Part shown: piece after piece, positions 10,452 to 64,000 of the stretch | Layout: the number at the start of each line of letters is the position of its first letter | Position numbering within the stretch: position 1 is the first letter of the stretch | Assembly (NCBI RefSeq): GCF_030814815.1 | Contig: NZ_JAUSVR010000001.1 | Span: 186,001 to 250,000, forward strand | DNA: 64,000 bases | From: Ancylobacter amanitiformis | Lineage (GTDB): Bacteria > Pseudomonadota > Alphaproteobacteria > Rhizobiales > Xanthobacteraceae | Reading direction: 5' to 3' | Program-made: the position numbers and the translations under genes | The notes under the pieces: model-generated | Databases searched by the model: none | Told to the model about the DNA's origin: nothing | Seen by the model: only the letters and a program-made list of their open reading frames with translations

Positions 10452-11779
10452 TGTTCATCTCCGATCCCGCCCTCGGCATCGTGATGCTGGTGCTGTTCCT
10501 CATCTTCCTGATGCTCGGCTTCCCCATCGCCTTCACGCTCATGGCGCTGGGCGTCGGCTTTGGCTATTTCACGCAAGGCGACAGCATCTTCAACCTGTTC
10601 GTCCAGCGCACCTATTCGGTGATGGCGAATGACGTGCTGATCTCGATCCCGCTCTTCCTGTTCATGGGCTACGTGATCGAGCGCGCCAATATTCTCGACC
10701 GGCTGTTCCGCGCCATCCAGCTCGCCGCCGGCTGGATCCCCGGCTCGCTCGCGGTGGCGACGCTGATCACCTGCGCGCTGTTCGCCACCGCCACCGGCAT
10801 TGTCGGCGCCGTGGTGACGCTGATGGGGCTGCTCGCCTTCCCCGCCATGCTGCGCGCCGGCTACGACACCAAGATCGCCTCGGGCGTGGTCTGCGCCGGC
10901 GGCTGCCTCGGCATCCTCATCCCCCCGAGCGTGATGCTCATCCTCTACGGCGCCACGGCGGGCGTCTCGGTGGTGAAACTCTATGCCGCCGCCTTCATTC
11001 CCGGCATCACGCTGGCGGCCATGTACATGGCCTACGTCGTCATCCGCGTGATCATCAATCCGGCGCTGGCACCCAAGCTCCCGGCGGAGGAGCGCAACGT
11101 GCCGGCCGGCGAGATCGCGCTGGCGCTGCTCACCTCATTCCTGCCGCTGGTGGCGCTCATCGTCTCGGTGCTGGGCTGCATCATCTTCGGCCTCGCCACG
11201 CCCTCGGAAGCGGCCGCCATCGGCGCGATGGGCGCCATTCTGCTGGCGCTCGCCTACCGCACCTTCAGCGTCGAGAAGCTGAAGGATTCCGTGTTCCTCA
11301 CCGCCCGCGCCTCGGCCATGGTGTGCTGGCTGTTCGTCGGTTCGGCGGTGTTTTCCGCCGTGTTCGCCCTGCTCGGCGGCCAGCGCGTGGTGGAAGAGTT
11401 CATCATGTCGCTGGATCTCGGGCCGGTCGGCTTCCTGATCCTCACGCAGATCATCATCTTCGTGCTCGGCTGGCCGCTGGAATGGACGGAAATCATCGTC
11501 ATCTTCCTGCCGATCTTCCTGCCGCTGCTCGACCATTTCGGCATCGACCCGATCTTCTTCGGCGTTCTCGTGGCGCTGAACCTGCAGACCTCGTTCCTCT
11601 CGCCGCCCGTCGCCATGGCGCCGTTCTACCTCAAAGGCGTGGCGCCCAAGCATGTCTCGATCGACGAGATCTTCTCCGGCGTCATGCCCTTCATCTTCAT
11701 CGTCGTCTTCGCGATGGCGCTGCTCTACATCTTCCCCGGCTTTGCGCTGTGGCTGCCGAACTACCTCTATGGCGGCTGA
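10451..11779 (+). CDS. dctM: TRAP transporter large permease DctM
   Basis: A 442-residue polytopic transporter subunit, with a dozen or so hydrophobic segments. Family marks are FPIAFTLMALGVGFGYF at the N-terminus, IPLFLFMGYVIERANI, ATATGIVGAVVTLMGLLAFPAML and the late segment LNLQTSFLSPPVAMAPFYL. It forms the ion-driven translocation path with DctQ. ATG at 10451 is adopted; a GTG one codon earlier would also work. An intrinsic terminator follows at 11807. Confidence 0.94.
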   Translation: MFISDPALGIVMLVLFLIFLMLGFPIAFTLMALGVGFGYFTQGDSIFNLFVQRTYSVMANDVLISIPLFLFMGYVIERANILDRLFRAIQLAAGWIPGSLAVATLITCALFATATGIVGAVVTLMGLLAFPAMLRAGYDTKIASGVVCAGGCLGILIPPSVMLILYGATAGVSVVKLYAAAFIPGITLAAMYMAYVVIRVIINPALAPKLPAEERNVPAGEIALALLTSFLPLVALIVSVLGCIIFGLATPSEAAAIGAMGAILLALAYRTFSVEKLKDSVFLTARASAMVCWLFVGSAVFSAVFALLGGQRVVEEFIMSLDLGPVGFLILTQIIIFVLGWPLEWTEIIVIFLPIFLPLLDHFGIDPIFFGVLVALNLQTSFLSPPVAMAPFYLKGVAPKHVSIDEIFSGVMPFIFIVVFAMALLYIFPGFALWLPNYLYGG

Positions 11780-11806
11780 GGCGGGCCGGCTCATGGCTTG
11801 CATGAC

Positions 11807-11832
11807 GAAACGGGTCCTTGCGGACCCGTTTC
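11807..11832. terminator. Terminator after the TRAP operon
   Basis: A perfect 11-bp stem (gaaacgggtcc / ggacccgtttc) with the loop ttgc. It lies between two convergent genes and is better placed for the plus strand. Confidence 0.75.
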
Positions 11833-11861
11833 AGTTTGCCGACTCTTGATCACAGGTCGCC

Positions 11862-16766: not shown

Positions 16767-17464
16767 GCCGCGCGCTCCCGGGCCGGTGCGCGACGCCGCA
16801 GGTCCGCGATCACCTCGCCCAGAATGGCAACGGCGATCTCCGCCGGGCTGACCGCGCCGATATCGAGCCCGATCGGCGCGTGGATGCGGGCCAGCGCCTC
16901 ACGCGGAATGCCGGTCGCGGCGAGGCGTTCCAGCCGGGCGGCATGGGTCTTCCGCGAGCCCAGCGCGCCGATATAGAAGCACTCGCGCGCCAGCGCCTCG
17001 ACCAGCGCCGGATCGTCGATCTTCGGGTCATGGGTCAGCGCGGCGAAGGCGGTGAAGCCATCGAGCCGCAGTTCCGGCAGCACCCTATCGGGCCACGCGG
17101 CGCGCAGGTCGATCGCGGGGAAGCGCTCGGGCGTCGCGAAGGCGGTGCGCGGATCGATGATGATCACGTCGAAGCCGGCGCTCGCCGCCATCGGTGCCAA
17201 TGCCTGCGAGATATGCACCGCGCCGGTGATGACCAGCCGGGGCGAGGGCACCTGCACGGTGAGGAAGACGCGCGCGTCGCCGTGCTCCACAAGCCGGCTG
17301 CGGCCGGTGCGCAGCGCTTCCGTGAGCTGTTCGGCCAAGGGATCGCCGGCGATCGCGTCCGGGCGGACGACGCGCTGGCGGCCGCTGCCAAGCTCGGTGA
17401 CGAGAAGCGTGGCGCGGCGGGCGGCGCGCTCGGCGTTGAGCGCTTCAAGAACCGCGAGTTCCAT
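16763..17464 (-). CDS. XdhC-like protein, Rossmann domain part
   Basis: A 233-residue protein carrying the XdhC C-terminal NAD-like binding domain. A short N-terminal CoxI-like leader is followed by LVITGAVHISQALAPMAASAG, FDVIIIDPRTAFATPERFP, FAALTHDPKIDDPAL and YIGALGSRKTHAARLERL, which are diagnostic. XdhC binds and sulfurates the molybdenum cofactor before insertion into xanthine dehydrogenase-type enzymes. The start ATG overlaps the upstream stop by one base. The usual XdhC is one polypeptide; here the N-terminal domain is a separate gene. Confidence 0.88.
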   Translation of the reverse strand: MELAVLEALNAERAARRATLLVTELGSGRQRVVRPDAIAGDPLAEQLTEALRTGRSRLVEHGDARVFLTVQVPSPRLVITGAVHISQALAPMAASAGFDVIIIDPRTAFATPERFPAIDLRAAWPDRVLPELRLDGFTAFAALTHDPKIDDPALVEALARECFYIGALGSRKTHAARLERLAATGIPREALARIHAPIGLDIGAVSPAEIAVAILGEVIADLRRRAPARERAA

Positions 17465-17787
17465 CAGGCCACCTTCTCGACATAGACCGCGATGCGCCCG
17501 CCGCAGGACAGGCCAACCTGCCAGGCGGTGGCGTCGGCAACGCCGAATTCGAGCAGGCGCGGCGTGCCCTGCGCGATCACCTCGGCGGCCTCCGCCACGA
17601 CCGCGCCCTCCACGCAGCCCCCCGATACCGAGCCGAGGAAATTGCCCTCCCCGTCAATGGCCAGATGGCTGCCGACCGGGCGCGGCGCCGAACCCCATGT
17701 CTCGATAACGGTGGCGAGCGCCACGCCGCGCCCCTCGCGCCGCCAGCGGGCGGCGGCTTCCAGAACGTCTTCCTCGCGCGCGTACAT
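17464..17787 (-). CDS. XdhC/CoxI N-terminal-domain protein
   Basis: A 107-residue single-domain XdhC/CoxI protein. Visible motifs are ALATVIETWGSAPRPVGSHL and GSVSGGCVEGAVV, with the conserved cysteine of the family, and VGLSCGGRIAVYVEKV at the end with a second cysteine. It is the first gene of the three-gene maturation operon. The start at 17787 is preferred over 17814 because GGGAGA precedes it. It is thought to work with the downstream Rossmann-domain protein in cofactor sulfuration. Confidence 0.87.
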   Translation of the reverse strand: MYAREEDVLEAAARWRREGRGVALATVIETWGSAPRPVGSHLAIDGEGNFLGSVSGGCVEGAVVAEAAEVIAQGTPRLLEFGVADATAWQVGLSCGGRIAVYVEKVA

Positions 17788-17877
17788 GCCGTCTCTCCCG
17801 ATCGGTCTCGTCATCTTTATCGCAGAGCATCACGCCCGCGCTTGCCGATAAAGCACGAAGCGATCAAAAAGCCGCGC

Positions 17878-18996
17878 ATGACCTTGCCCGCAACCGCGCC
17901 CGCCCCCTCTCCGCCCGTCGCCTCCATGCCGCGCACGCTGCGCCGTCTCGACGAACTGAGCGAGGCCGGCCTTCTGCCCGCGCCCGCCGATCGCCCGGAT
18001 GCTCTCGACGCCGTCGCCGCGCGCTATGCGGTGGCGGTGACGCCGGTTCTCGCCGCCCTCGTCGACCGCAGCGACCCGGCCGATCCCATCGCCCGCCAGT
18101 TCGTGCCCGATACGCGCGAGCTGGACACCGGCCCTGAGGAGCTTGCCGATCCGATCGGCGACGGCGCGCACAGCCCGGTGCCGGGCATCGTGCACCGCTA
18201 TCCCGACCGGGTGCTGCTCAAGCTGGTCGGCGTCTGCGCCATCTATTGCCGCTTCTGCTTCCGCCGCGAAATGGTCGGCCCCGGCGCCGAGAGCAGCCTC
18301 TCGGACGCGGCGCTGGACGGCGCGCTGGCTTATGTCGCGGGCCATCCCGAGATATGGGAGGTGGTCGTCACCGGCGGCGACCCGCTGGTCGCTGCGCCGC
18401 GTCGGCTCGCTGACCTGATGGCACGGCTCGCCGCGATCGGGCATGTGAGGATCGTGCGCTTCCACACCCGCGTGCCGATCGCCGCGCCCGAGCGCATCAC
18501 CCCCGCGCTGGTGGCGGCGCTGCGCAGGCCTGATCTCACCACCTATGTCGCGGTGCATGCGAACCATGCGCGCGAACTGGGGCCGGAAGCGCGCGCCGCG
18601 CTGGGCCGGCTGGCCGATGCGGGGATCGCCCTTGTCGGGCAGAGCGTGCTTCTGGCCGGCGTCAACGATGCGGCGGACACGCTCGCCGCCCTGTTCCGCG
18701 CGCTGGTCGAGTGCCGGGTGAAGCCCTATTACCTGCACCATCCCGACCTGGCCCCCGGCACCGCCCATTTCCGCCTGCCGTTGGCACGCGGGCAGGAGCT
18801 GATGCAGGCGCTGCGCGGGCGTGTCTCCGGCCTCGCCCTGCCAACCTATGTGCTCGATATCCCCGGCGGCCACGGCAAGGTGCCGGTGGGACCGGGCTAT
18901 CTCGAACCCACGCCCGAGGGCTGGCACGTCACCGATTATTGCGGCGGCGTGCATGCCTATGCCGAGGGCGTGGACGCCTCGGATGGCGGCACGTGA
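17878..18996 (+). CDS. Lysine 2,3-aminomutase-like radical SAM enzyme
   Basis: A 372-residue radical SAM/PLP enzyme of the KamA/EpmB family. The iron-sulfur motif is CAIYCRFC (CxxxCxxC), followed by FRREMVGP, the SAM-binding VVTGGDPL, a strand with VRFHTRVPI, and near the C-terminus DIPGGHGKVPV, whose lysine should hold PLP. It is intermediate in length between EpmB (about 340) and clostridial KamA (about 416). It may beta-lysylate EF-P (with EpmA) or act on free lysine; neither epmA nor efp is in the window. Its stop overlaps the next gene (GTGA). Confidence 0.9.
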   Translation: MTLPATAPAPSPPVASMPRTLRRLDELSEAGLLPAPADRPDALDAVAARYAVAVTPVLAALVDRSDPADPIARQFVPDTRELDTGPEELADPIGDGAHSPVPGIVHRYPDRVLLKLVGVCAIYCRFCFRREMVGPGAESSLSDAALDGALAYVAGHPEIWEVVVTGGDPLVAAPRRLADLMARLAAIGHVRIVRFHTRVPIAAPERITPALVAALRRPDLTTYVAVHANHARELGPEARAALGRLADAGIALVGQSVLLAGVNDAADTLAALFRALVECRVKPYYLHHPDLAPGTAHFRLPLARGQELMQALRGRVSGLALPTYVLDIPGGHGKVPVGPGYLEPTPEGWHVTDYCGGVHAYAEGVDASDGGT

Positions 18997-20180
18997 GGCC
19001 GTCCGCGCGCGTGGACGTGGTCGTGCTCGGCGCCGGCGCGGCGGGCATGATGTGCGCCTGGGAGGCCGGCAAGCGCGGGCGCAGCGTCGTCGTCATCGAT
19101 CATGCCCGCGCGCCGGGCGAGAAGATCCGCATTTCCGGCGGCGGACGCTGCAATTTCACCCATCTCGACGCCACGCCGCGCACCTATCTCTCCGCCAATC
19201 CCGGTTTCGCCATCTCGGCGCTGAAGCGCTACACGCCGCAGGATTTCGTCCGTCTGGTCGACCAGCACGGCATCGCCTGGCACGAGAAGGCGCGCGGTCA
19301 ATTGTTCTGCGACGGCTCGGCGCGGCAGATCGTCGACATGCTGACACGCGGCCTCGCCGATGTCGGCGCCGAGCTGCGTCTGGCCACCACGGTCACCGAC
19401 ATCGAGCGCAGCGCGGACGGCTTCATGCTGGCCACCTCGACGGGCGCCCTCGCCTGCCGCGCGCTGGTCGTGGCGACGGGGGGCAAGTCCATCCCCAAGA
19501 TGGGCGCCACCGGCTTCGGCTACGATCTGGCCGAGCGCTTCGGGCTCCCCGTGCTGCCGACCCGGCCGGGACTGGTGCCGCTGACGCTCGATCCGGCGTT
19601 GCTGGAGCGGCTCGCCCCGCTCGCCGGCGTGGCGGTGGAGGCGCGCGTGCGCCACGGCAAGACGCGCTTCGAGGATGGGCTGCTCTTCACCCATCGCGGC
19701 CTGAGCGGGCCGGCCATCCTGCAGATATCCTCGTACTGGCGCGAGGGCGAGGAAATCGAGATCGCGCTGGCGCCGGCCACCGACGTCTTCACCCGGCTGC
19801 GCGAGGCGCGCGCCCACCAGGGACGGCAGGCGCCGGCCAGCGTGCTCGCCGGGTTCCTGCCCAAGCGGCTGGCGCAGCGAATCGGCGAACAGGAGGCCGG
19901 GGCGAAGAACCTCGCCGACCTCCCGGACACGCGGCTGCGCCGCATCGAGGCGGCGGTGAACGGCTGGCGCCTGAAGCCCACGGCCTCCGAGGGCTACCGC
20001 ACCGCCGAGGTCACGCTGGGCGGCGTCGACACGGCGGGGCTCGATTCGCGCAGCATGCAGGCGCGCCACGTGCCGAACCTGTATTTCATCGGCGAGGTGG
20101 TGGACGTCACCGGCTGGCTCGGCGGCTATAATTTCCAGTGGGCCTGGTCCTCCGGCTGGGTGGCCGGACAGAGCGTCTAG
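18993..20180 (+). CDS. BaiN/RdsA-type FAD-dependent oxidoreductase
   Basis: A 395-residue flavoprotein of the HI0933/BaiN (YhiN) family. It has the FAD dinucleotide motif GAGAAG near the N-terminus, the family block RISGGGRCNFTHLD, LFCDGSARQIVDML in the middle, and the C-terminal FAD site YFIGEVVDVTGWLGGYNFQW. The reaction is unclear: homologues reduce quinones or bile acids, and some have links to RNA. The GTG start lies within the upstream aminomutase stop (GTGA), implying translational coupling, although no functional tie is known. Confidence 0.9.
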   Translation: MRPSARVDVVVLGAGAAGMMCAWEAGKRGRSVVVIDHARAPGEKIRISGGGRCNFTHLDATPRTYLSANPGFAISALKRYTPQDFVRLVDQHGIAWHEKARGQLFCDGSARQIVDMLTRGLADVGAELRLATTVTDIERSADGFMLATSTGALACRALVVATGGKSIPKMGATGFGYDLAERFGLPVLPTRPGLVPLTLDPALLERLAPLAGVAVEARVRHGKTRFEDGLLFTHRGLSGPAILQISSYWREGEEIEIALAPATDVFTRLREARAHQGRQAPASVLAGFLPKRLAQRIGEQEAGAKNLADLPDTRLRRIEAAVNGWRLKPTASEGYRTAEVTLGGVDTAGLDSRSMQARHVPNLYFIGEVVDVTGWLGGYNFQWAWSSGWVAGQSV

Positions 20181-20228
20181 CGCGGCTTCGGGCGACGAAC
20201 CCGCCGGGTGCCGCCGGGTGCCGCAGGA

Positions 20229-20789
20229 CTAGACGGTCAGGAAGCCTCGGCCGAGATAGGCCAGCTTGGTGCGGTCCGCGCCCAGCGTGATCGCCTCCAC
20301 CCGCCCCACCAGCACGTCATGCGTGGCGATGGTGCGCACCTCGACCAGCCGGCACTCGAACGCGGCGATGGCATCGCGCAGGCACGGAATGCCGAGCCGG
20401 CCCTCATGCCAGGTGCCCGTCGCGAACCGCTCCTCGCCCGACATCCCGCCCGCCCCGCCCCCCTTGCCGCCGAAAACCTGCGCCACGGCCTGCTGCTCGC
20501 CGGCGAGCATGTTGACGGCGAAGACGCCCGCCTGCCGGAAGGCCGGGGCGGAATGGATACGCCGGTTGAGACAGACCAGCAGGGTCGGCGGGCTGTCCGA
20601 GACCGAGGCAACCGCCGTGGCGGTGAAGCCGACGCGCCCGGCCGCGCCGCGCGTGGTGACAACATGGACGGCCGCCACCAGCCGGCTCATCGCCTCGCGA
20701 TAGAGCCCCGCCTCGACCGCCCCGCCAGCACTGTGCGCCGCCGCATGCCCGGCGTCCTGCCGCGTCGTCTCGTCCACCTCTGCCTCCAT
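20229..20789 (-). CDS. Flavin reductase-like FMN-binding protein
   Basis: A 186-residue cytosolic protein of the HpaC/flavin-reductase domain family. Motifs are VAAVHVVTTRGAAGRVGFTA, ASVSDSPPTLLVCLN, FAVNMLAGEQQAVA, the C-terminal HDVLVGRVEAI and the final YLGRGFLTV. It would supply reduced FMN/FAD to a monooxygenase; none is adjacent. The frame is open far upstream to 21011, but the start at 20789 fits the family length. It is convergent with the BaiN-like gene and divergent from livH. Confidence 0.87.
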   Translation of the reverse strand: MEAEVDETTRQDAGHAAAHSAGGAVEAGLYREAMSRLVAAVHVVTTRGAAGRVGFTATAVASVSDSPPTLLVCLNRRIHSAPAFRQAGVFAVNMLAGEQQAVAQVFGGKGGGAGGMSGEERFATGTWHEGRLGIPCLRDAIAAFECRLVEVRTIATHDVLVGRVEAITLGADRTKLAYLGRGFLTV

Positions 20790-54415: not shown

Positions 54416-55183
54416 TCACGCCAGCATGCGAATGCCGCCGCAGACCGATAGCGACTGGCCGGAAATGAGCCGGCCATGCTCGGAGGCGAGGAACAGGATC
54501 TGGTCGGAAATGGCCTCCGGCGGCACGTATTCCTTGATCGAGGTGTACTGGAAGGCCTGGGCCTCGACCTCGCCGAAGGACAGGCCCTTCTGCTGCGCCT
54601 TGGCCTCCAGCACGCGCCGCTGCCGGTCGCCGGCCACCAGCCCCGGCATGATCGTGTTGACGCGGATGCCGTAATCGCCGAGTTCGATGGCCAGCGATTG
54701 GGTCAGTCCCACCACACCCCATTTGGCGGCGGCATAGGGCGTGCGCATGCCGAAGCCGAGGCGGCCGGCCACCGAGGACAGGTTGGCGATCGAGGGATTG
54801 GCGCTTGCGCGCAGCGCCGCGACCGAGCGGGAAACCGCCAGGAACTGGCTGGTGAGCACGATGTCGATGGTGCGGCGCCAGTCGGCGGGGTGAATATCCT
54901 CCACCCGCCCGGTCGGCCCGGCAATGCCGGCATTGTTGACGAGGCAGTCCAGCCCGCCGAGCGCCTCGATGGCCCGGTCGATGAAGGCGGTGAAGTTCGT
55001 CTCGTCGGCAACATCCACCGTCTCGGCGTGCACGCCGGGGGGAAGAGTGGCCAGCGCCGTCTCGTCGATGTCGCAGGTCGCGACACGGGCCCCCTCCTTC
55101 AGAAACCCCTCAATGATGGCCCGTCCGATGCCGGCCGCGCCCGCCGTCACGATGACCTTGGCGCCCGTCAGTCCTAGATCCAT
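54416..55183 (-). CDS. Short-chain dehydrogenase/reductase
   Basis: A 255-residue NAD(P)-dependent oxidoreductase. The cofactor loop is TAGAAGIGRA (TGxxxGxG variant); NNAG is present as LVNNAGIAG, the catalytic serine is in IANLSSVAG and the Tyr/Lys pair in YAAAKWG. Asp in TCDIDET after strand 2 favours NAD over NADP. The C-terminal IRVNTIMPGLVAGDRQRR is typical. Substrate unknown; the neighbourhood (lactonase, sugar transporter) suggests a sugar dehydrogenase giving a lactone, but other alcohol substrates are possible. Last gene of a probable three-gene operon. Confidence 0.88.
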   Translation of the reverse strand: MDLGLTGAKVIVTAGAAGIGRAIIEGFLKEGARVATCDIDETALATLPPGVHAETVDVADETNFTAFIDRAIEALGGLDCLVNNAGIAGPTGRVEDIHPADWRRTIDIVLTSQFLAVSRSVAALRASANPSIANLSSVAGRLGFGMRTPYAAAKWGVVGLTQSLAIELGDYGIRVNTIMPGLVAGDRQRRVLEAKAQQKGLSFGEVEAQAFQYTSIKEYVPPEAISDQILFLASEHGRLISGQSLSVCGGIRMLA

Positions 55184-55248
55184 GTCGCCCACTCCCTGAG
55201 TTCTTCCGCCGGCGCGCCGGGAATCCCCGGCGGCCGACACGTGTTCGT

Positions 55249-56286
55249 TCACAGCAGAAGTTCGTCGTGGCCGAGGCTGGCGATCAGCGCCGCGACCTCG
55301 ATGGCGGGAACGTCGGCCGGCGTGGCATGGCGCCATTTCGGCTGGCGGTCCTTGTCGATGATCTGGGCGCGAACGCCCTCCATGAAGTCGGTGAGGCCCG
55401 GCAGCACCGATCGCCAGGTGACGCGGAACTCCCGCGTCAGCGCGCTGCGCAGGTCCGCCATGGCCGGCAGGCTGCGCAGCAGCACCAGCGTGCAGGCCAT
55501 GGCCAGCGGCGAGTTGCGACCCATCGCCTCCGCGCCTTCGCGCGCCCAGCGCGCGTCGCTCGCCTGCTGGGCGGCCAGGATCGCGGGAACGTCCGGGCCG
55601 GCAAACGCCTGCTCGATCTCAGCCCCCGCCGCATGGAGCGGGCTGTCGGGAGCCGGCACGGCGGCGGCGGCGATCAGCCCGGCATCGCCGGTGGCCGCCA
55701 GAACGGCGGCGAGCGCCTCCCATGCCCGCTCAGGCACGAGACAATCGGCGAAGCCGGTGCGGATGGCATCGCCCGGCCCCATCCGCAGGCCGGTGAGCCC
55801 GAGATATTCGCCCAGCCGATGCGGCGCCCGAGACAGCAGCCGCGTGCCGCCGACATCGGGAATGAGGCCGATGCCCACTTCCGGCATCGCCAGCCGCGTC
55901 GTCTCGCCGACGATGCGATGGGAGACGTGGCAGCCGAGGCCGACCCCGCCGCCCAGCACGATGCCCTGCAGGAAGGCGACGACCGGCTTGGGATATTCCG
56001 CCAGCGCGACATTCATCCGGTATTCGTCGCGCCAGAAGGCGTGGCCCACACTCGCATCGCCCGCCGCGGCGGCCCGGCAGATGCGCGCCACGTCGCCGCC
56101 GGCGCAGAAGGCCCGCTCGCCCTGCCCGTCGATGATCACAAGGCGAACGGCGTCATCCGCGCGCCACGCCTCCAGCGCCGCGGCGATCGTCCGGCACATG
56201 TCGTGGGTCAGCGCGTTCAGGGCCTCCGGCCGCGCCAGCGTGATACGCCCGGCCTTCCCGTCCGTGCGGATCAGCACATGCGACAT
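55249..56286 (-). CDS. Enoyl-CoA hydratase/3-hydroxyisobutyryl-CoA hydrolase-like protein
   Basis: A 345-residue crotonase-fold enzyme of the HIBCH type. ERAFCAGGDVARI builds the CoA oxyanion hole, GIVLGGGVGLGCHVSHRIVG the second, and MPEVGIGLIPDVGGTRLLSR carries the catalytic Glu/Asp. The extended C-terminal helical part and its length fit HIBCH (hydrolysis of 3-hydroxyacyl-CoAs) rather than simple hydratases. Valine degradation is the usual role, but no other valine gene is here; it could hydrolyse another short hydroxyacyl-CoA. GAGG precedes the ATG; 65 bases to the SDR. Confidence 0.88.
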   Translation of the reverse strand: MSHVLIRTDGKAGRITLARPEALNALTHDMCRTIAAALEAWRADDAVRLVIIDGQGERAFCAGGDVARICRAAAAGDASVGHAFWRDEYRMNVALAEYPKPVVAFLQGIVLGGGVGLGCHVSHRIVGETTRLAMPEVGIGLIPDVGGTRLLSRAPHRLGEYLGLTGLRMGPGDAIRTGFADCLVPERAWEALAAVLAATGDAGLIAAAAVPAPDSPLHAAGAEIEQAFAGPDVPAILAAQQASDARWAREGAEAMGRNSPLAMACTLVLLRSLPAMADLRSALTREFRVTWRSVLPGLTDFMEGVRAQIIDKDRQPKWRHATPADVPAIEVAALIASLGHDELLL

Positions 56287-56419
56287 GTTTTCCTCAGGAC
56301 CGGATGGGTCCGCCGGCGGACGGAGGATGGCGACGACGAGGGGGCGGCGGCTTGAAAGTGATGACCCGCCGTGAACGACGGGCGGGCGCCGCGCGACACG
56401 TGGCGGCGCCGCGCCGGGA

Positions 56420-57325
56420 TCAGCCGCCGAAGCGCGGCTCGGGCAGGCCCTTCACGCCGAGGCCATGCACCGCGAACACCCCGCCGGCATGCGCCTCGCG
56501 CTGCGGCACGCCCTTGATCGGACGCCCCATCGAGGTCACGTAGAGGATGTCGAGATCCTTGCCGCCGAACATCACCGAGGTGAGGTTGCGCACCGGAAAC
56601 TCGATTTCCCGGTCGATGCTGCCATCCGGCGCGTAGCGGATGATGCGCCCGCCGAAGACATGGGCGTTCCAGATGTAGCCTTCCGCGTCGACCGTGGAAC
56701 CGTCGAACGTGCCGGGATACTGCCGGTTCGAGGCGAAGTCGCGCCGGTTGGAGAGGCTGCCCGTCTCGATGTCGTAGTCATAGGCATACATGATGTCGTC
56801 GTAGGAATCGCAGAAGTAGAAGGTGCGGTCGTCCGGGCTCCAGCACGGCCCGTTCGAGCATTTGATGCCGCTTTCCAGCCGGGTGATCGACAGGTCCGGG
56901 TCGAGCCGGTAGAGCGCGGAATTGCGCACCGGGCGCTGGCCGCGACCGGCATCGAGGCGGTCGTGGTCGTAAGACATGTAGCCGGCAATGAAACGACCGC
57001 GGCGATCCACCTTGCCGTCATTCAGGCGGTTTTCCGGCTCGTCCGCTTCCGGGTCGCCGATATGGGTCAGGCGCTGGCTGCGGAAATCATACAGGCTGAA
57101 GCCATTGGCCAGCGCCAGAACCGCGCCGCCCGTCTCGCGCAGCGCCATGGAGCCGATATGGGTCGGCACGTAGTAGAGCTTCACGTCGGAGCCATCCTCG
57201 CGGGCACTCCAGATCTCGGACGCGGAACTGTCGATCCAGTAGAGGCGCTGCTCCTCGACATCCCAAAGCGGGCCTTCGCCCAGGTGGTTCTTGGAATCCA
57301 CCAGAAGCCGGATATCCACCATCAT
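56420..57325 (-). CDS. SMP-30/gluconolactonase-family lactonase
   Basis: A 301-residue six-bladed beta-propeller hydrolase. LGEGPLWDVEEQRLYWID starts with the metal-binding Glu, SNGPCWSPDDRTFYFCDS gives the Asn/Asp metal ligands, and FDGSTVDAEGYIWNAHVFGG the next. Members open sugar lactones such as glucono- or ribonolactone. GGGAGG lies before two consecutive ATG codons at 57325 and 57322. Divergent from the cyclase gene across a 207-base spacer that contains two palindromes. The first gene of a likely operon with the HIBCH-like and SDR genes. Confidence 0.9.
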   Translation of the reverse strand: MMVDIRLLVDSKNHLGEGPLWDVEEQRLYWIDSSASEIWSAREDGSDVKLYYVPTHIGSMALRETGGAVLALANGFSLYDFRSQRLTHIGDPEADEPENRLNDGKVDRRGRFIAGYMSYDHDRLDAGRGQRPVRNSALYRLDPDLSITRLESGIKCSNGPCWSPDDRTFYFCDSYDDIMYAYDYDIETGSLSNRRDFASNRQYPGTFDGSTVDAEGYIWNAHVFGGRIIRYAPDGSIDREIEFPVRNLTSVMFGGKDLDILYVTSMGRPIKGVPQREAHAGGVFAVHGLGVKGLPEPRFGG

Positions 57326-57404
57326 CGTTCCTCCCAGAACGTCACTGCACGGGTTTTCCCGCGTTGCCACCACCTTCGGCAAAAGCCCGGAGGCTGTCAA
57401 GATA

Positions 57405-57429
57405 TGTGATCACAGATCAATAATTGATC
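57405..57429. promoter_or_regulatory. Twin palindromic operator between SMP-30 and cyclase genes
   Basis: TGTGATCACA (57405-57414, perfect palindrome) is followed at once by GATCAATAATTGATC (57415-57429, perfect 6-bp arms). It lies in the only AT-rich part of the spacer and would suit a regulator controlling both directions, for example GntR-type. No regulator gene is in this part of the window. Confidence 0.6.
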
Positions 57430-57532
57430 GTTGACGCTCGCGCGGAGGCCATGCTTCTCTCGCGCTGCGGCTCCAAAGAGCCGCCGGAGCGGCCCGCCAA
57501 AAGGGCACGCCACAAACATCTGGGAGGAAGAT

Positions 57533-58282
57533 TTGAACGCGGTAGATAAGCCGACTATCGACCAGCTGCTGTCGGCACTGAAGGGCATGCGGGTGGTCGA
57601 TCTGGCCCCCCTTCTCGAACGCGGCATTCCGCGCTGGCCCACCCATCCGCACCTGACGATCGACAAGGCCGTCACCCACGAGCATGATGGCTATTATTGC
57701 CAGGCGATCATGATGGCCGAGCATACCGGCGCGCATGTCGACGCGCCCGCCCACATGCTGCCCGATCGCATGGACCGCACCATCGACACCTTCTCGCCCG
57801 ATCACCTCATCGCCACCGCGGTGCTCTATGATTTCGGCGACCAGGACCTCAAGCCGGGCCAGCTCATCACCGCGGATGACCTGCGCCGGGTCGAGCAGCG
57901 CACCGGCATGGCCGTCGGCGAGGGCGAGATCGCCGTCGTCAATTATGGCTGGATGCAGCGCTACTGGCGCACGGATTCGCGCGCGCAATGGTACGTGCTC
58001 AACGCGCCCGGCATGTCGGAAGATGCCTGCGAGTTCTTTCGCGAGCGCAAGGTGAAGGCGGTCGCGACCGATACCGTCGCCGCCGAGACGGCGATCATCG
58101 ACGGCGTGCCGCAGAACAATCCCGGCCATATGAAGAGCTGGCTGCCGCATGACATCCTGATCATCGAAATGCTGCGCAACCTCGAACAGGTGTCGCCCCG
58201 CTTCCTGTTCGTCGCCGCGCCGCTCAATATCTTTGAGGGTTCCGGCTCGCCGATCCGCCCCTTCGCCTATTGCCCGGCCTGA
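57533..58282 (+). CDS. Cyclase-family (kynurenine formamidase-like) hydrolase
   Basis: A 249-residue metal-dependent hydrolase of the cyclase superfamily. The metal-binding motif HTGAHVDAPAHM (HxGTHxDxPxH variant) is clear; the N-terminal VVDLAPLLERGIPRWPTHPH and the DTVAAETA and SWLPHDILIIEML sections follow. Members hydrolyse amides, lactones or isatin. The start is TTG at 57533, chosen because GGGAGGA sits just before it and no ATG in frame is as well placed. Divergent from the lactonase and under the same operator. Confidence 0.85.
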   Translation: MNAVDKPTIDQLLSALKGMRVVDLAPLLERGIPRWPTHPHLTIDKAVTHEHDGYYCQAIMMAEHTGAHVDAPAHMLPDRMDRTIDTFSPDHLIATAVLYDFGDQDLKPGQLITADDLRRVEQRTGMAVGEGEIAVVNYGWMQRYWRTDSRAQWYVLNAPGMSEDACEFFRERKVKAVATDTVAAETAIIDGVPQNNPGHMKSWLPHDILIIEMLRNLEQVSPRFLFVAAPLNIFEGSGSPIRPFAYCPA

Positions 58283-58311
58283 CCGGCCAGGCGACGACGA
58301 AACGATCCGGG

Positions 58312-58343
58312 GCAGGCACGGCCCCATGACGGGCCGTGCCTGC
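58312..58343. terminator. Strong hairpin after the cyclase gene
   Basis: A perfect 13-bp stem (gcaggcacggccc / gggccgtgcctgc) with a 6-base loop, 30 bases after the cyclase stop. No T-run follows, so its efficiency is unclear. Confidence 0.55.
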
Positions 58344-58351
58344 GCCCGACT

Positions 58352-58389
58352 CGAAAGAGTTTTCGCTGCCCGAAAGAGTTTTCGCTGGA
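58352..58389. repeat. Two 19-bp tandem repeats
   Basis: cgaaagagttttcgctgcc is followed immediately by cgaaagagttttcgctgga. Each unit is itself a small hairpin (cgaaa-gagt-tttcg). It lies between the cyclase and GFA genes. Confidence 0.8.
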
Positions 58390-58456
58390 AGACTCTGGCC
58401 AGCGGCACATGGCGCGTCGAAGATGACGCCTTGGGACGTGGCGGGAGGTATGCGGC

Positions 58457-58849
58457 ATGGAGCGTTTCACGGGCGGCTGCCGGTGCGGCACGGTTCGGAT
58501 CGTGGCGTCCGGCCAGCCCTATCGGGTGGGCCTCTGCCATTGCCTCGACTGCCGCAAGCATCACGGCGCGCTTTTTCACGCCTCCGCCATTTTCCCGCAG
58601 CAGGCGGTGACGATCGAGGGCGAGATCCGCGACTATGCCGGGCGGTTCTTCTGCCCCACCTGCGGCTCGCCCGTCTTCGCCCGCTCGGGCGACGAGATCG
58701 AGGTGAATCTCGGCTCGCTCGATGCCCCCGACCAGTTGCGGCCGAGCTATGAGATCTGGACCATAAGGCGCGAATCCTGGCTGCCGCCCTTTCCCCTCGC
58801 ACGACACTATGAACGCGATCGCGACCCCACGAGCCGCGTCGAGGAATGA
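58457..58849 (+). CDS. GFA-family (Mss4-like fold) zinc-binding protein
   Basis: A 130-residue protein of the GFA family. Zinc-cysteine clusters: C8 and C10 (GGCRCGTV), C27, C29 and C32 (CHCLDC), C66 and C69 (CPTC). The family was named for glutathione-dependent formaldehyde activation, but most members have unknown function, and the name should not be taken as a reaction. GGGAGG precedes the ATG by a few bases. Convergent with the BKACE gene. Confidence 0.9.
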   Translation: MERFTGGCRCGTVRIVASGQPYRVGLCHCLDCRKHHGALFHASAIFPQQAVTIEGEIRDYAGRFFCPTCGSPVFARSGDEIEVNLGSLDAPDQLRPSYEIWTIRRESWLPPFPLARHYERDRDPTSRVEE

Positions 58850-58961
58850 GCCGCCTCAAAGAGGAGCGGCGTACTCGCCACGGCCAGACAAGGCCCGCCG
58901 GGATTGGCGCCCGGCGGGCTTTCTGGTCCGGAAGCAAGGCCGCATCCGGTGAAAGGGGCGA

Positions 58962-59900
58962 TCAGAAATTGACCGAACCCGGGCCCTTCAGCTGGAGAAT
59001 CTGCCGCGCCTCGTCCGGCGTCGCGATTTCCAGCCCGAGGCCCTCGATCATCTGGCGCACCAGCCGCACCTGGTCGGCGCTGGAGGTCGCCAGCTTGCCC
59101 CGACCCGCCCACAGCGAATCCTCAAGCCCCACGCGCACATTGCCGCCCAGTGCCGCCGCCTGCGCCGCGATGCGCAGCTGGCTCGCGCCGGCGCCGAGCA
59201 CCGACCAGCGATAGTCATCGCCGAACAGCCGGTCCGCCGTGCGCTTCATGTGCTGCACGTCCTCGGGATGCGTGCCGATGCCGCCGAGAATGCCGAATAC
59301 CGACTGCACGAAGAAGGGCGGCTTGACGAGGCCACGCTCGGCGAAATGCGCGAGATTGTAGAGATGGGCGATATCGTAGCATTCAAACTCGAAGCGCGTG
59401 CCGTTCTCGTAGCAGGTGCGCAGGATGAACTCGATGTCCTTGAACGAGTTGCGGAAAACGAGATCCCGCGTCGCTTCCAGATGCTCACGTTCCCACTCGA
59501 ACTTGAACTCGTGATACTTGTCCAACAGATGGAACAGGCCGAAATTGATCGACCCCATGTTCAGCGAGGCGACTTCCGGCTTCAGCATCTGCGCCGGCAG
59601 CACGCGCTCTTCCACCCGCATATAGGGGCTGCCGCCGCTGGTCAGGTTCAGCGCGGCGTTGGTTGCCTGCTTGATCTGCGGCAGGAAGCGCATGAAGCCC
59701 TCGACCGTCTGGTCGGGCTTGCCGGTCTCCGGGTTGCGCGCGTGCAGGTGGAGAATGGCGGCCCCGGCCTCGGCGGCGCCGAGCGCGTCGTCGATGATCT
59801 GCTGCGGCGTGATCGGCAGGTAGGGCGACATGGAGGGCGTGTGGATCGCGCCCGTCACGGCGCAGGTGATGATGACCTTGCGCGGTCCCGGCTTGCTCAT
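58962..59900 (-). CDS. BKACE-family beta-keto acid cleavage enzyme (DUF849)
   Basis: A 312-residue zinc enzyme that exchanges an acyl group between a beta-keto acid and acetyl-CoA, giving acetoacetate and a new acyl-CoA. Metal ligands HxH are in ILHLHARNPETGKP; the Arg/Glu/Asp set is in NVRVGLEDSLW, as in the founding 3-keto-5-aminohexanoate cleavage enzyme. SGGSPYMRVEERV is the CoA/substrate loop. The substrate is set by the pocket and cannot be read by eye. Start at 59900 follows AGGA. Just downstream of the 3-dehydrogenase, which would make its keto substrate. Confidence 0.92.
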   Translation of the reverse strand: MSKPGPRKVIITCAVTGAIHTPSMSPYLPITPQQIIDDALGAAEAGAAILHLHARNPETGKPDQTVEGFMRFLPQIKQATNAALNLTSGGSPYMRVEERVLPAQMLKPEVASLNMGSINFGLFHLLDKYHEFKFEWEREHLEATRDLVFRNSFKDIEFILRTCYENGTRFEFECYDIAHLYNLAHFAERGLVKPPFFVQSVFGILGGIGTHPEDVQHMKRTADRLFGDDYRWSVLGAGASQLRIAAQAAALGGNVRVGLEDSLWAGRGKLATSSADQVRLVRQMIEGLGLEIATPDEARQILQLKGPGSVNF

Positions 59901-59929
59901 GGCATCTGTCCTTGTGCTGGGTACTGGTC

Positions 59930-60877
59930 TCAGGCGCCGATATCGCGGTCGGCGCGGTTCTTGTGGGCGATCAGCGCCATGAGGCGGCGGTCGCGCCATT
60001 CCTGTCGCGGCTGCAACTGGTCGGCCGGCAGCGCCGCGCGGCGATCGCGCGCGATCTCCTCGATGACCGGGCCGTCCCATTCCACGCGGCGCATCATGCT
60101 GGCGAAGAGGCCGCGATACAGGCCCTGATAGCGCTCGACATAGTCGCGCACCCCGCCGGGCGCGTTCAGGTCGATGGTCTCGAACGGACCCATGAACGAC
60201 CAGCGCAGCGCCAGTCCGTCGCGTATGCCGATATCGACATCCTCCACCGAGGCGTAGCCATCGGCGACCAGCCGGAACGCCTCCTCCAGAATGGCGCCCT
60301 GCAGCCGGTTCATGACGAAGCCGTCGATCTCGCGCTTCATCACGATCGGCTTCTGCCCGATCGCCGTGAGGATGCGCGCCGCCCGCTCCACCGTCGCGGG
60401 CGAGGTCCAGGGCGCCGGCACCACCTCGGCTGCGGGGATGACGTAAGGCGGGTTGATCGGGTGGGCGACCAGACAGCGGGCGCGCCCGGCCAGCCCCTCG
60501 GTGAAGGCCGAGGGCAGCAGCGCCGAGGTCGAGGAGGCGATCACCGCATCCGCCGGCGTCGCGCTGTCGAGCCGCTGGAAAATGGCGATCTTCACGTCGA
60601 GCCGCTCGAAGGTGTTTTCCTGCACGTAGCCGACGCCGGCCACCGCCGCCTCCAGGCTCTCCACCGGCTGGATGCGGGTCAGCACCTCCTCGGGTGCCTG
60701 GCCGTTCAGCAAATCATGAGCGAGGAGATCGGGCAGCAGGCCGGCAATATAGTCCTTGGCGCGCCCGGTGGCGTCCGCATCCTGGTCCCACAGCCGCACC
60801 GAATTGCCCGCACGCGCGTGGCTGATGGCCCAGGCCCGGCCGATGAACCCGGTGCCGATAATGGCAACGTCTTCCAT
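59930..60877 (-). CDS. 3-hydroxyacyl-CoA-dehydrogenase-family enzyme, lambda-crystallin/L-gulonate 3-dehydrogenase-like
   Basis: A 315-residue NAD-dependent dehydrogenase. The Rossmann motif is IIGTGFIGRAWA. The active-site part AHPINPPYVIPAAEVVPAP and later VMNRLQGAILEEAFRLVADG, GPFETIDLNAPGG resemble CRYL1 (L-gulonate 3-dehydrogenase) and L-carnitine dehydrogenase. It should oxidise the C3 hydroxyl of a 3-hydroxy acid, giving the beta-keto acid expected by the adjacent BKACE. The stop is 29 bases before the BKACE start. GGGAGA precedes the ATG. Carnitine as substrate remains possible but fits the sugar transporter less well. Confidence 0.88.
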   Translation of the reverse strand: MEDVAIIGTGFIGRAWAISHARAGNSVRLWDQDADATGRAKDYIAGLLPDLLAHDLLNGQAPEEVLTRIQPVESLEAAVAGVGYVQENTFERLDVKIAIFQRLDSATPADAVIASSTSALLPSAFTEGLAGRARCLVAHPINPPYVIPAAEVVPAPWTSPATVERAARILTAIGQKPIVMKREIDGFVMNRLQGAILEEAFRLVADGYASVEDVDIGIRDGLALRWSFMGPFETIDLNAPGGVRDYVERYQGLYRGLFASMMRRVEWDGPVIEEIARDRRAALPADQLQPRQEWRDRRLMALIAHKNRADRDIGA

Positions 60878-60945
60878 GTGTTGTCTCCCTTGGCGCAGGC
60901 GCTGCATCGGCGCGGGCGCGTGTCTGGCCTTGCGGATGGGTGGGG

Positions 60946-63054
60946 TCAGCGGCGCTCGCGCAGCGCGATCACGGCGGTGAGAATGACGACGCCGTAGACG
61001 ATGGAGCGCACCGATGTCGGGAAGGTCGTGCCCGCCAGCAGGGTCTGCAGCGCCGTGAGCAGCAGGACGCCGCCCAGCATGCCGGCATAATTGCCGCGCC
61101 CGCCGGTGATCAGCGTTCCGCCCACCACGACGGCGGCGATCGAGGGCAGCAGATATTCGTCGCCCATGCCCAGGCTCGCCTGCCCCGACAGCCCGCTCAG
61201 CAGGATGCCGACCAGCGCGGCGCACAGGCCCGACAGCATGTAGACCATGACCACCGTGCGCTTGACCGGCACGCCGGAAAGCGCGGCGGCGCGCGCGCTG
61301 TTGCCGATGGCATAGACCCGCCGGCCGAACGCGGTGCGCCCCAGCAGCACGACGGCGGCAAGCACGAACAGCCCGAGGAAGATCACCACCGGGGTCACGC
61401 CGAACACGCGCTGCGTCATGAAGGACCGCAGCAGCGGCGCGGCGAAGCCGTCCGGCGTGCCGCCGGAATAGATCAGCGCGGTGCCCTGCAGGAACCCGTT
61501 GGTCGCCAGCGTCATGACGATGGGCGAGAGCCCGAGCAGGACGATGCCGGTGCCGTTGATCAGGCCGATCAGCGCCCCCACCAGCAGCACGAAGGGCACG
61601 GCATAGATGAGTTCGACATTCGACCCCGCCGCCATGCCGCTGACCAGGATGCCGGCCAGCGCAATGGTCCAGGGCAGCGAGAGGTCCAGCCCGCCGGTGA
61701 GGATCACGGCCCCCTGCCCCAGCGCCAGAATGGCCAGGAAGCAGGAGAGCACGAGCAGCGTGTTGTAGTAGTTGCCGTTCAACAGCGTGTTGCCGAGCAT
61801 GAACTCGGTCGCCAGCAGCACCACGGCGAAGCTGATGAAGGCGGGCAGCGCCAGCAGGATGGCCGGCCGGCTACGACCGAGCCGCTGAATGAGGCTCGCG
61901 CCCTGCCCCTCGCCGAAGACCCGCACGCCATCCGCCGGCACGCCATCCGCCCGGCGGGGAAGCGCGAGGCGCTTCACATCCGTGGTTCGCTGGCGCGCCA
62001 GCACGCCCTCGCGCCAGGCCGAGAAGCGCGTACCGGCGCGGCGCAGGTTCTCCGCGAGTTCGGAACGGCGATGCAGCGCGCCCATCAGCACGGCGAGCAG
62101 CAGGATCGTGCTTTCCGCGATGGTCGAGTAATAGGCCGAGACGTTGAGGATCAAGAGGATATTGACCATCAGCACCAGCACGAAGGCGCCGATCACCGTG
62201 CCGGTCAGCCCGCCGCGCCCGCCGCCGAGCAATGTGCCCCCGACCACCACCGCCGCGAACATCTGCAGCAGCATGGGGTTGCCGACCAGCGGATCGCCCG
62301 CCCCGGTCTGGCCGGAAACGCACACCCCCGCCAGGCCATAGAAACCTCCGGCCAGCACATAGGTGAGGAAGCGCGCGCGGCGCGTGGCGATGCCCGCCGA
62401 GCGCGCGCTGTCGGCATCGCCGCCCACGGCATAGAGCGCGATGCCGAACGGCGTCGCCTTCAGCCAGTACCAGAGGGCAAGGCACGCCAGGATGAGCGCG
62501 CCGGTCATCGGCAGGAAGCCCGGGATGACCTCGGACCCCATGAATTCCCCGAGCGAGGCGTCGATCACGCCGCCGGGCTTGTCCATCACCAGCAGGGTGG
62601 CGCCCTGCAGGATGAACATGGTCGCCAGCGTCACCACGATCGGCTGCAGGCGGAGAAACGCGATGAGCGCGCCATTGACCATGCCCACCAGCGCGCCGAT
62701 GCCGATGCCGATCAGCAACAGCAGCACCGGCGAGGTCACGGCATCCGGCGGCAGCGCGGCGAGGCTCACATTGACCAGCGAGATCACCGCCGCGGCGGAG
62801 AGGTCGAAGCCCCCGCTCAGGATGACGAGGGTCTGGCCCATGCCGGCGATCGCCAGCGGCGTGCCGCTCGAGACGATCTGCGAGATATCGTAATAGCTCA
62901 GCGGGGTGGCGCTGACGGAAAGGATGATGCTGGCCAGCACCACCAGCACGCCGGCGGCGGTCAGCAGGCCGCGATCGCGGCCGAGGCGCCATTTGCGGCC
63001 GGCCGTGCCGTCCCGCAGGGCGGGTTCAAGTCGCTCTGTCATCTGCATGGCCAT
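60946..63054 (-). CDS. Fused tandem ribose-type ABC permease (two RbsC domains)
   Basis: A 702-residue inner-membrane protein with two complete RbsC/BPD_transp_2 domains in tandem: about residues 25-330 and 400-702, joined by a charged linker of about 65 residues (HRRSELAENLRRAGTRFSAW and after). Each has the sugar-permease motif: AVVVGGTLLGGGRGGLTGT in the first half and AVVVGGTLITGGRGNYAG in the second. Normal transporters use two separate copies; here the dimer is covalent and could be asymmetric. The start at 63054 is one base after the ATPase stop. Two later ATG codons (63048 and 63042) are alternatives. Confidence 0.92.
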   Translation of the reverse strand: MAMQMTERLEPALRDGTAGRKWRLGRDRGLLTAAGVLVVLASIILSVSATPLSYYDISQIVSSGTPLAIAGMGQTLVILSGGFDLSAAAVISLVNVSLAALPPDAVTSPVLLLLIGIGIGALVGMVNGALIAFLRLQPIVVTLATMFILQGATLLVMDKPGGVIDASLGEFMGSEVIPGFLPMTGALILACLALWYWLKATPFGIALYAVGGDADSARSAGIATRRARFLTYVLAGGFYGLAGVCVSGQTGAGDPLVGNPMLLQMFAAVVVGGTLLGGGRGGLTGTVIGAFVLVLMVNILLILNVSAYYSTIAESTILLLAVLMGALHRRSELAENLRRAGTRFSAWREGVLARQRTTDVKRLALPRRADGVPADGVRVFGEGQGASLIQRLGRSRPAILLALPAFISFAVVLLATEFMLGNTLLNGNYYNTLLVLSCFLAILALGQGAVILTGGLDLSLPWTIALAGILVSGMAAGSNVELIYAVPFVLLVGALIGLINGTGIVLLGLSPIVMTLATNGFLQGTALIYSGGTPDGFAAPLLRSFMTQRVFGVTPVVIFLGLFVLAAVVLLGRTAFGRRVYAIGNSARAAALSGVPVKRTVVMVYMLSGLCAALVGILLSGLSGQASLGMGDEYLLPSIAAVVVGGTLITGGRGNYAGMLGGVLLLTALQTLLAGTTFPTSVRSIVYGVVILTAVIALRERR

Positions 63055-63055
63055 C

Positions 63056-64000
63056 TCACACCGCCAGTTTTTCGCGGGAGCTATCGGGCGCCGAACCAAG
63101 CGCGGCGGCCAGAATGTGTTCCTCGGTCAGCTGGTCGCCGGCCAGTTCGGCGGCGATGCGCCCGGCATAGAACACCAGTGTCCGGTCGGTGAGATGGACG
63201 AGTTCGGGGATCTCGGTGGAGTAGAAGATCACCGCCCCGCCCGCCTCGGCATAGGCGCGCAGCAACTGGTAGATCTCGTTCTTGGTGCCGACATCGATGC
63301 CGCGCGTCGGGTCGTAGACCAGCAGCACCCGCGCCTCGCTCAACAGCCATTTGGCGATGGCGATCTTCTGCTGGTTGCCGCCCGAGAAGGATTCCGCCGG
63401 CATCCATTCCGCGCGTTCGGCGACGTTCACCTGGCCGAACACCGCGCGCACGGCGGCCGCCTCCTTCGCCCGGTCGATGATGCCGAAGCGCGTGAAGCGC
63501 TCGATCACCGGGATCGTGGCGTTCTGCGTGCCGGTGAGCTTGAGGAACAGGCCCTCGGTCTTGCGCTCCTCCGGCACCAGGCTGATGCCGATGCGCGCGG
63601 AAATCGCATCGCCGGGCGAGGTGAACACCACCTTGCGCCCATCGACGGCGAGATGCCCGCGGCTGACCGGCCTCTCGCCGAACAGGGCGAGAAACAGATC
63701 CAGTTGGCCCATGCCCTGGAGGCCGGCAATGCCGAGGATCTCGCCCTCGCGCAGGCGGAAGCTGGCCTCGCGCAGCTTGCCCGCCGTCCCCATGCCATGG
63801 GCCGCGAGAACCTCGGTGCCGAGCCTGTGGCGGGTCTGGCCGCGTGGGGGAAAGGAGTGGATCAGCGAGCGGCCGGCAATCATGCGCACCACGTCCTCAT
63901 CCGCGAAGTCGCGGACATGGCCGGAGGCGATGTGCCTGCCGCTGCGCAGGATGGTGAGGTCGTCGCAGAAATCGCGCACCTCCCGCAGCCGGTGCGAAAT
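63056..64000 (-). CDS. Sugar ABC transporter ATP-binding protein, C-terminal part (5' end outside window)
   Basis: The last 314 residues of a RbsA/MglA-like ATPase. The frame is open to the edge and starts with ISHRLREV, the end of the first nucleotide-binding domain. The second domain has the signature FSGGNQQKIAIAKWL, but its Walker B is LLVYDPTRGIDVG: the usual Asp-Glu before Pro-Thr is Tyr-Asp. The switch region reads YSTEIPEL with no histidine, as is common in second domains of this family. ATP hydrolysis is therefore likely at one site only. It couples to the fused permease directly downstream; the binding protein is not in the window. Confidence 0.92.
   Translation of the reverse strand: MSHRLREVRDFCDDLTILRSGRHIASGHVRDFADEDVVRMIAGRSLIHSFPPRGQTRHRLGTEVLAAHGMGTAGKLREASFRLREGEILGIAGLQGMGQLDLFLALFGERPVSRGHLAVDGRKVVFTSPGDAISARIGISLVPEERKTEGLFLKLTGTQNATIPVIERFTRFGIIDRAKEAAAVRAVFGQVNVAERAEWMPAESFSGGNQQKIAIAKWLLSEARVLLVYDPTRGIDVGTKNEIYQLLRAYAEAGGAVIFYSTEIPELVHLTDRTLVFYAGRIAAELAGDQLTEEHILAAALGSAPDSSREKLAV

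Follow-up and report, generated by a model that had tools for sequence, protein, structure and literature searches.

Gene content of the two operons

A putative sugar-acid catabolic gene cluster was analysed at the end of a 64,000-nt stretch of the Ancylobacter amanitiformis genome (the window; the genome, labelled G000, has 4,839,674 bases), together with L003, a locus of the same genome that reaches past the window end. RecA (PF00154) of the genome shows 92-93% identity to Ancylobacter and to two Xanthobacteraceae metagenome-assembled genomes. The right operon codes for a sugar-type binding protein, an ATP-binding protein, a fused permease, a 3-hydroxyacid dehydrogenase (HAD) and a β-keto acid cleavage enzyme (BKACE), and a GntR/FCD regulator gene lies divergently upstream. 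The left operon codes for an SMP-30 lactonase, a hydrolase of the 3-hydroxyisobutyryl-CoA hydrolase (HIBCH) type and a short-chain dehydrogenase/reductase (SDR). Two plus-strand open reading frames (ORFs) of the cyclase and GFA families separate the operons, the cyclase gene being divergent from that for SMP-30. A sequence-only reading of the window had joined seven of these genes into one oxidative pathway. An ORF check and profile scores established all seven as open ORFs at the positions below with the domains given; that gene set had left out the cyclase gene under the shared operator, the regulator with its published motif, and the glycerate kinase and CoA-transferase genes near related operons.

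63056-64000 (-): ATP-binding protein of a CUT2/ribose-type ATP-binding cassette (ABC) importer; cut by the window end, full gene (514 amino acids) at L003:57-1601
60946-63054 (-): fused double permease with two RbsC-type halves; PF02653 (BPD_transp_2) in two stretches, equally long form in relatives
59930-60877 (-): CRYL1/lambda-crystallin-like NAD-dependent HAD; NF004783 479 bits (cut-off 347), best PDB match 3ado
58962-59900 (-): BKACE, proposed 2-deoxy-3-keto-pentonate:acetyl-CoA cleavage enzyme; PF05853 350 bits, NF053538 534.8 bits (cut-off 430, a broad model)
57431-58282 (+): metal-hydrolase ORF of the PF04199 'cyclase' family; 106.9 bits, HTGAHVDAPAH segment; longest start TTG at 57431, a later start being possible, e.g. 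GTG near 57542
57406-57417 (+): operator GTGATCACAGAT in the divergent promoter of the cyclase and SMP-30 genes
56420-57325 (-): SMP-30/regucalcin-type lactonase; PF08450 (SGL) 272.9 bits, best PDB match regucalcin, 54% identity to the SMP-30 of the L084 operon
55249-56286 (-): HIBCH-type acyl-CoA hydrolase, candidate glyceryl-CoA hydrolase; NF004127 374.4 bits (cut-off 274)
54416-55183 (-): SDR of a BKACE-linked clade, proposed NAD-dependent 2-deoxyaldonate 3-dehydrogenase; adh_short_C2 160 bits, Asp at the end of beta-2, best PDB match 5unl
L003:1677-2804: sugar-type binding protein, past the window end
L003:3170-3961: GntR/FCD regulator, divergent, past the window end and upstream of the right operon

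Shared operator and conservation of the gene set

The palindrome GTGATCAC has been reported upstream of deoxyribonate gene clusters (Price et al. 2019, PMC6365646; this and the other two papers are cited here from excerpts). The 8-mer occurs at 66 sites in the genome, one of them in each of two divergent promoters (window position 57406 and L003:3058). From the density of the 66 sites, the odds of chance matches in both promoter stretches are about 1 in 100,000 for lengths of approximately 141 and 365 bp, the former depending on the cyclase start. The longer form GTGATCACAGAT, which was derived from these two sites themselves, exists in exactly two copies genome-wide, namely at window position 57406 and at L003:3058 between the regulator and binding-protein genes. 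The same pair of operator sites is carried by the sister genome G005 (locus L124) and by Metarhizobium album (L004). The GntR/FCD regulator is predicted to control both operons by acting at GTGATCACAGAT.

Relatives were drawn from 80 named BKACE loci, the best 80 of at least 572, to which 27 regions from further genomes and 17 plasmid loci were added, these two sets being hand-picked and not random. Two regions duplicate named loci (L130 = L041, L131 = L076), so that the 124 loci represent 122 distinct ones; loci ending at contig ends were counted as they stand. Rows of tblastn output were removed if coverage was below 60% or if identity was below 38% (SDR), 44% (HAD), 40% (SMP-30, cyclase, glycerate kinase), 36% (HIBCH) or 45% (ABC parts).

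Within the best 80 relatives, 34 have the co-directional order binding protein, ATP-binding protein, permease, SDR, HAD, BKACE, SMP-30. An SDR gene is found at 52 of the 80 loci and a HAD gene at 50, with both at 48 and neither at 26. BKACE relatives with the gene set belong mostly to Mesorhizobium, Phyllobacterium, Aurantimonadaceae and other Alphaproteobacteria, and also to Bordetella (L022, L039) and Vreelandella (L075). All three ABC genes are present at 48 distinct loci (37 named, four plasmid-borne, seven from further genomes), every one of which has the SDR and 46 of which have HAD; at full ABC loci homologues of the ATP-binding protein are 54-70% identical. Other related SDR/BKACE loci have MFS, branched-chain-type ABC or divergent TRAP transporters. 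In the sister genome all parts are kept at 82-98% identity, and this conservation, together with the full gene order in 34 of the best 80 relatives, indicates that the linkage exceeds chance.

The left and right operons belong together and form one regulon, because they share an operator and appear as a single co-directional operon in relatives. The assumption that one pathway links the two was thus backed, and genes of the left operon do occur together with the right one in relatives. Across the 124 loci a further form of the palindrome, TGTGATCACA, is present in 18 copies, compared with 0-8 copies of 29 composition-matched control palindromes. For 16 of the 18 copies a match to the regulator, SDR, HAD or SMP-30 is no more than 170 bp away; the exceptions are the copy at L137 and one of two at L148.

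The proposed 2-deoxypentonate pathway and its alternatives

The cluster is a widely conserved pathway operon and probably a variant form of the oxidative deoxyribonate pathway. With a probability of roughly 0.6, the window contains most of a regulon for oxidative 2-deoxypentonate catabolism, the likeliest natural substrate being 2-deoxyribonate or its lactone. The CUT2-type importer would take up the acid or the lactone, and SMP-30, perhaps assisted by the cyclase-family hydrolase, would open lactones. The SDR would oxidise the C3 hydroxyl to give 2-deoxy-3-keto-pentonate, while the CRYL1-like HAD may perform the same oxidation on acids of the opposite (L) configuration at C3. The BKACE would convert the keto acid and acetyl-CoA to acetoacetate and glyceryl-CoA, which the HIBCH-type enzyme may hydrolyse to glycerate. 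Glycerate kinase, for which a 48% identical homologue is encoded outside the cluster (G000:C3:61905-63182), would then send glycerate to glycolysis. Two proposals of the sequence-only reading, a 2-deoxy sugar acid as substrate class and a 3-dehydrogenase that supplies the BKACE, are in line with these data.

Growth on deoxyribonate by way of an SDR, a BKACE and glycerate kinase has been described in other bacteria, with glyceryl-CoA and acetoacetate as predicted products of the Pseudomonas simiae/Paraburkholderia route (PMC6365646). The P. simiae gene set consists of gntR, SDR, BKACE, a lactonase and two MFS genes, and its SDR oxidised deoxyribonate to ketodeoxyribonate in vitro. The window regulon resembles that system in the GntR regulator, SDR, BKACE, lactonase and operator GTGATCAC; the P. 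simiae lactonase was compared by its description as such, and that of the window is of SMP-30 type with the operator upstream. It differs from the system, as excerpted, in having an ABC importer instead of MFS transporters, in the additional CRYL1-like dehydrogenase, HIBCH-type hydrolase and cyclase, and in that the cluster is without the molybdenum deoxyribose dehydrogenase. A description of the ABC/HAD/HIBCH form was not found in the open-licence PMC literature; given the passage of Price et al. on the bryophila cluster, the picture is not entirely new. The present data extend the route for this oxidised DNA sugar to many Alphaproteobacteria, foremost rhizobia and their kin, and to some Beta- and Gammaproteobacteria, in a form to which an ABC importer and another dehydrogenase belong.

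Which of the two dehydrogenases acts at C3 was judged from loci that have only one of them. L135 (divergent FCD/GntR gene, SDR, BKACE, SMP-30, two MFS genes, motif) and L088 (FCD/GntR gene, SDR, BKACE, MFS gene, motif) are without HAD and served, by gene set and motif, as stand-ins for the characterised Pseudomonas/Paraburkholderia enzymes. In an SDR tree of 66 rows, left after 111 collected sequences and 5unl (112 rows) had been thinned at 80% identity, the SDRs of the window and of L135 and the structure 5unl fall into one clade of 38 rows (support in the SH-like approximate likelihood ratio test 97, quick search); the L088 SDR and 5unl do not differ over 255 amino acids (100% identity). C3 oxidation was assigned to the SDR because the HAD-free gene set at L135 matches that of P. 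simiae and because of the common SDR clade, and the presence of the SDR at all ABC loci but of the CRYL1-like enzyme at 46 of 48 favours the same assignment. From sequence, the SDR thus more likely acts as C3 dehydrogenase than as C1 sugar oxidase.

The sequence-only reading had ordered the steps differently, with the SDR oxidising a free 2-deoxy sugar at C1, SMP-30 opening the lactone and the CRYL1-like enzyme alone making the 3-keto acid for the BKACE. In favour of this order, a free sugar would agree with the ribose-type importer and the lactonase, members of the CRYL1-like family use the 3-hydroxyl groups of acids, and both dehydrogenases are encoded at 46 of the 48 distinct ABC loci. At the two remaining loci, L052 and L071, the genes for importer, SDR, BKACE and SMP-30 stand without a CRYL1-like gene in the available DNA (short downstream at L071), and L135 and L088 likewise combine SDR and BKACE without it. 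Moreover, the SDR clade includes the L135 enzyme, whose locus matches the published deoxyribonate gene set, and some relatives use MFS or branched-chain-type transporters instead of the importer. The role of the SDR as C1 oxidase has therefore become doubtful and the order as a whole rather unlikely.

Lambda-crystallin (CRYL1) is L-gulonate 3-dehydrogenase, and HAD-family enzymes such as those for L-carnitine, L-gulonate and S-3-hydroxybutyrate act on L-type 3-hydroxyls, whereas deoxy-D-ribonate has one of D-type. Lambda-crystallins are the nearest solved structures of the window HAD (230.6 bits to 3ado), with which it shares the segment that replaces the CoA-binding region; it differs from L-gulonate 3-dehydrogenase in being operon-linked to a BKACE. 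At the PaaH position of the Lys that we matched to the CoA-site Lys56 of PMC10470551 it carries Leu, and near the second CoA contact its segment is that of lambda-crystallin. Because of these two features its substrate is likely a free acid. A 3-dehydrogenase of opposite handedness is the simplest reading of the CRYL1-like enzyme. In its fullest form this leads to a tentative proposal of a stereo-complete 2-deoxypentonate pathway, which we hold with considerable reserve: SDR and CRYL1-like enzyme would each oxidise one of the two C3 epimers, with a common 3-keto acid as product, the BKACE would cleave it, the HIBCH-type enzyme would be the missing glyceryl-CoA hydrolase, and a LarA-type racemase, encoded near glycerate kinase at L085 in Rhizobium ruizarguesonis, would convert L- to D-glycerate where the C4 centre is L.

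Several observations, along with those on the HIBCH-type gene given below, weigh against the 2-deoxypentonate assignment. The window SDR is just 45% identical to that of L135, and the sequences of the characterised Pseudomonas/Paraburkholderia enzymes were not identified in the further genomes and plasmid records. Since HAD is kept at 46 of 48 ABC loci, its function, whatever it may be, belongs regularly to the route; among the roles assigned here, that of HAD is the least certain. From a CUT2-type importer one would expect a neutral sugar or lactone as ligand rather than an acid. Finally, only four of 45 distinct regulator/binding-protein promoters contain the exact 8-mer GTGATCAC; the 41 promoters without it include all Mesorhizobium ones of the set. 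GTGATCAC was ruled out on this count as a family-wide mark. Through the motif only some family members are connected with the published regulator, and most Mesorhizobium-type operons must have other control.

The same four protein families form the phloroglucinol cluster PGR-DPGC-TfD-TAL of Clostridium scatologenes (PMC10470551, excerpt), in analogy to which the SDR would be a phloroglucinol reductase, the cyclase a dihydrophloroglucinol cyclohydrolase, HAD a triacetate-forming dehydrogenase and the BKACE a triacetate lyase. The window has members of all four families, its cyclase gene lies at the shared operator, and the BKACE passes NF053538, named '3,5-dioxohexanoate:acetyl-CoA acetone transferase'. 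Differences of the window cluster concern the cofactor segment of its SDR, the pocket residue of its BKACE, one residue of the cyclase and the branch of HAD; SMP-30, ABC importer and HIBCH genes come in addition. Beta-2 of the window SDR ends with C-D-I-D instead of the NADPH motif TR(S/N) described for the reductase, and the window BKACE has Ile-His at the position, placed by motif, of Trp16 of C. scatologenes TAL. Both are weak tests, as a four-gene SDR, BKACE, HAD and cyclase cluster built like the published one (L137 in G345, 8333-12348, minus strand) has the likewise inexact T-A-R-N and Met-His. The cyclase marker residues Trp20/Tyr22 were judged against L137, whose cyclase (27% identical) has WPY; the window cyclase, with WPT, agrees in the Trp and differs by a Thr in place of Tyr. 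In a HAD tree of 38 out of 74 rows (thinned at 82%) the window enzyme is far from that of L137. Cyclases of at least 40% identity accompany the operon only in the window genome, L124 (96%) and L004 (79%); lower-identity ones (22-31%) are found at L013, L031, L032, L061 and L063. NF053538 is also passed by all six BKACEs taken from other contexts (L145, L146, L149, L181, L182, L183; 514-566 bits), among them neighbours of acyl-CoA dehydrogenase, aminotransferase, xanthine-dehydrogenase-type and other genes, so that its name does not decide the substrate. The cofactor segment of the SDR, the pocket residue of the BKACE and the branch of HAD speak against a phloroglucinol-type pathway, which is improbable.

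A BKACE and a HAD-family dehydrogenase also act together in carnitine catabolism, and a separate pair of this kind is encoded in the genome at L170 (G000:C13:86000-105900), where a small BKACE adjoins a 504-amino-acid carnitine 3-dehydrogenase (9564-11988, plus strand). The latter scores 902.7 bits on NF005716 (cut-off 592) but the window HAD only 194 bits; the dehydrogenases belong to different subfamilies, and the two BKACEs are approximately 33% identical. The window BKACE and dehydrogenase hence do not group with the carnitine enzymes, and a function in carnitine degradation was rejected as extremely improbable.

As for the cyclase, our guess is that it represents an extra lactonase-type hydrolase. 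That further lactone hydrolases with different folds serve the 2-deoxypentonate pathway is plausible because an operon of Caballeronia contains both a metallo-beta-lactamase-type lactonase and SMP-30. This operon, on a plasmid of Caballeronia sp. M1242 (L144, 7366-17421, plus strand), has genes for GntR, SDR, BKACE, the metallo-beta-lactamase-type lactonase, ABC importer, HAD and SMP-30 in one row, and thus two lactonase folds. The NF053538 model was passed in 35 of 61 related genomes; as a functional name its title looks too specific, and caution is advised where it is given to BKACEs in very different gene contexts.

The GFA-family ORF (glutathione-dependent formaldehyde-activating type; 58457-58849, plus strand) lies between the BKACE and cyclase genes and is 82% identical in the sister locus L124; no match was detected in L004, and no link to the pathway was seen. 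A scan for promoters and terminators was uninformative, with one promoter-like site (1.3 expected) and six terminator-like sites (3.6 expected).

The HIBCH-type hydrolase and the proposed glyceryl-CoA step

3-Hydroxypropionyl-CoA, which resembles glyceryl-CoA, is a known substrate of HIBCH. The acyl-CoA hydrolase step foreseen in the sequence-only reading was supported, and by its NF004127 score the window enzyme belongs to the HIBCH family. Its gene is a second copy, a separate HIBCH gene being kept elsewhere in the genome. Among 30 genomes of the genus, two copies (E-value 1e-50 or better) occur only in G000 and G005, which share this gene layout, one copy in 27 and none in G007; as the two genomes are close kin, the second copy counts as one event. 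Among the other genus loci inspected, those of G002, G009 and G016 show the usual operon, the single HIBCH gene of each genome lying elsewhere. At three Rhizobium-group loci (L058, L084, L085) a HIBCH-type gene, 38-41% identical to that of the window, is located downstream of the operon beside glycerate kinase. At L085 genes for CoA-transferase A/B follow the HIBCH and glycerate kinase genes, and acetoacetate decarboxylase and 3-hydroxybutyrate dehydrogenase genes (names as annotated) lie upstream on the other side. In the HIBCH tree the copies of these three loci branch separately from that of the window, which implies recruitment of HIBCH-type genes on at least two occasions.

The gene might nonetheless code for an ordinary 3-hydroxyisobutyryl-CoA hydrolase whose link to the operon is one of position only, with another enzyme handling glyceryl-CoA. 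Its nearest relative in the tree besides G005 (L150, 49% identity) is part of a valine-type operon, with an acyl-CoA dehydrogenase gene on one side and a gene for 3-hydroxyisobutyrate dehydrogenase (367.5 bits on TIGR01692, cut-off 291.6) on the other. HIBCH-type genes are near just four of the 122 distinct loci, and the operon-linked copies have just two weak diagnostic columns in common. One clade of operon-linked HIBCH enzymes was looked for in the tree and not found. Against a plain hydrolase stand the occurrence of the second copy in just two genomes out of 30 of the genus, each of which has this layout and retains a separate HIBCH, the absence of a second copy from G002, G009 and G016 despite the usual operon, and the different-branch genes that adjoin glycerate kinase in L058, L084 and L085. 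We regard the plain hydrolase as a serious possibility, albeit not the favoured one.

In the accessible part of PMC9007349 (2022), the authors of the pathway still list the glyceryl-CoA hydrolase as unknown, and a later identification was not found in the open-access literature (subscription papers lay outside the search). On sequence grounds the HIBCH-type gene is a testable candidate for this missing enzyme, and a concrete gene family can thereby be proposed for the step.

On plasmid pRlX3 of R. ruizarguesonis, L085 also includes larA, larC and larB together with a gene for an adenine nucleotide alpha hydrolase, located between those for the chemotaxis receptor of the operon and for glycerate kinase (16404-20441, plus strand). 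The LarA protein scores 340 bits on NF033504, below the cut-off of 460, and its substrate is possibly glycerate.

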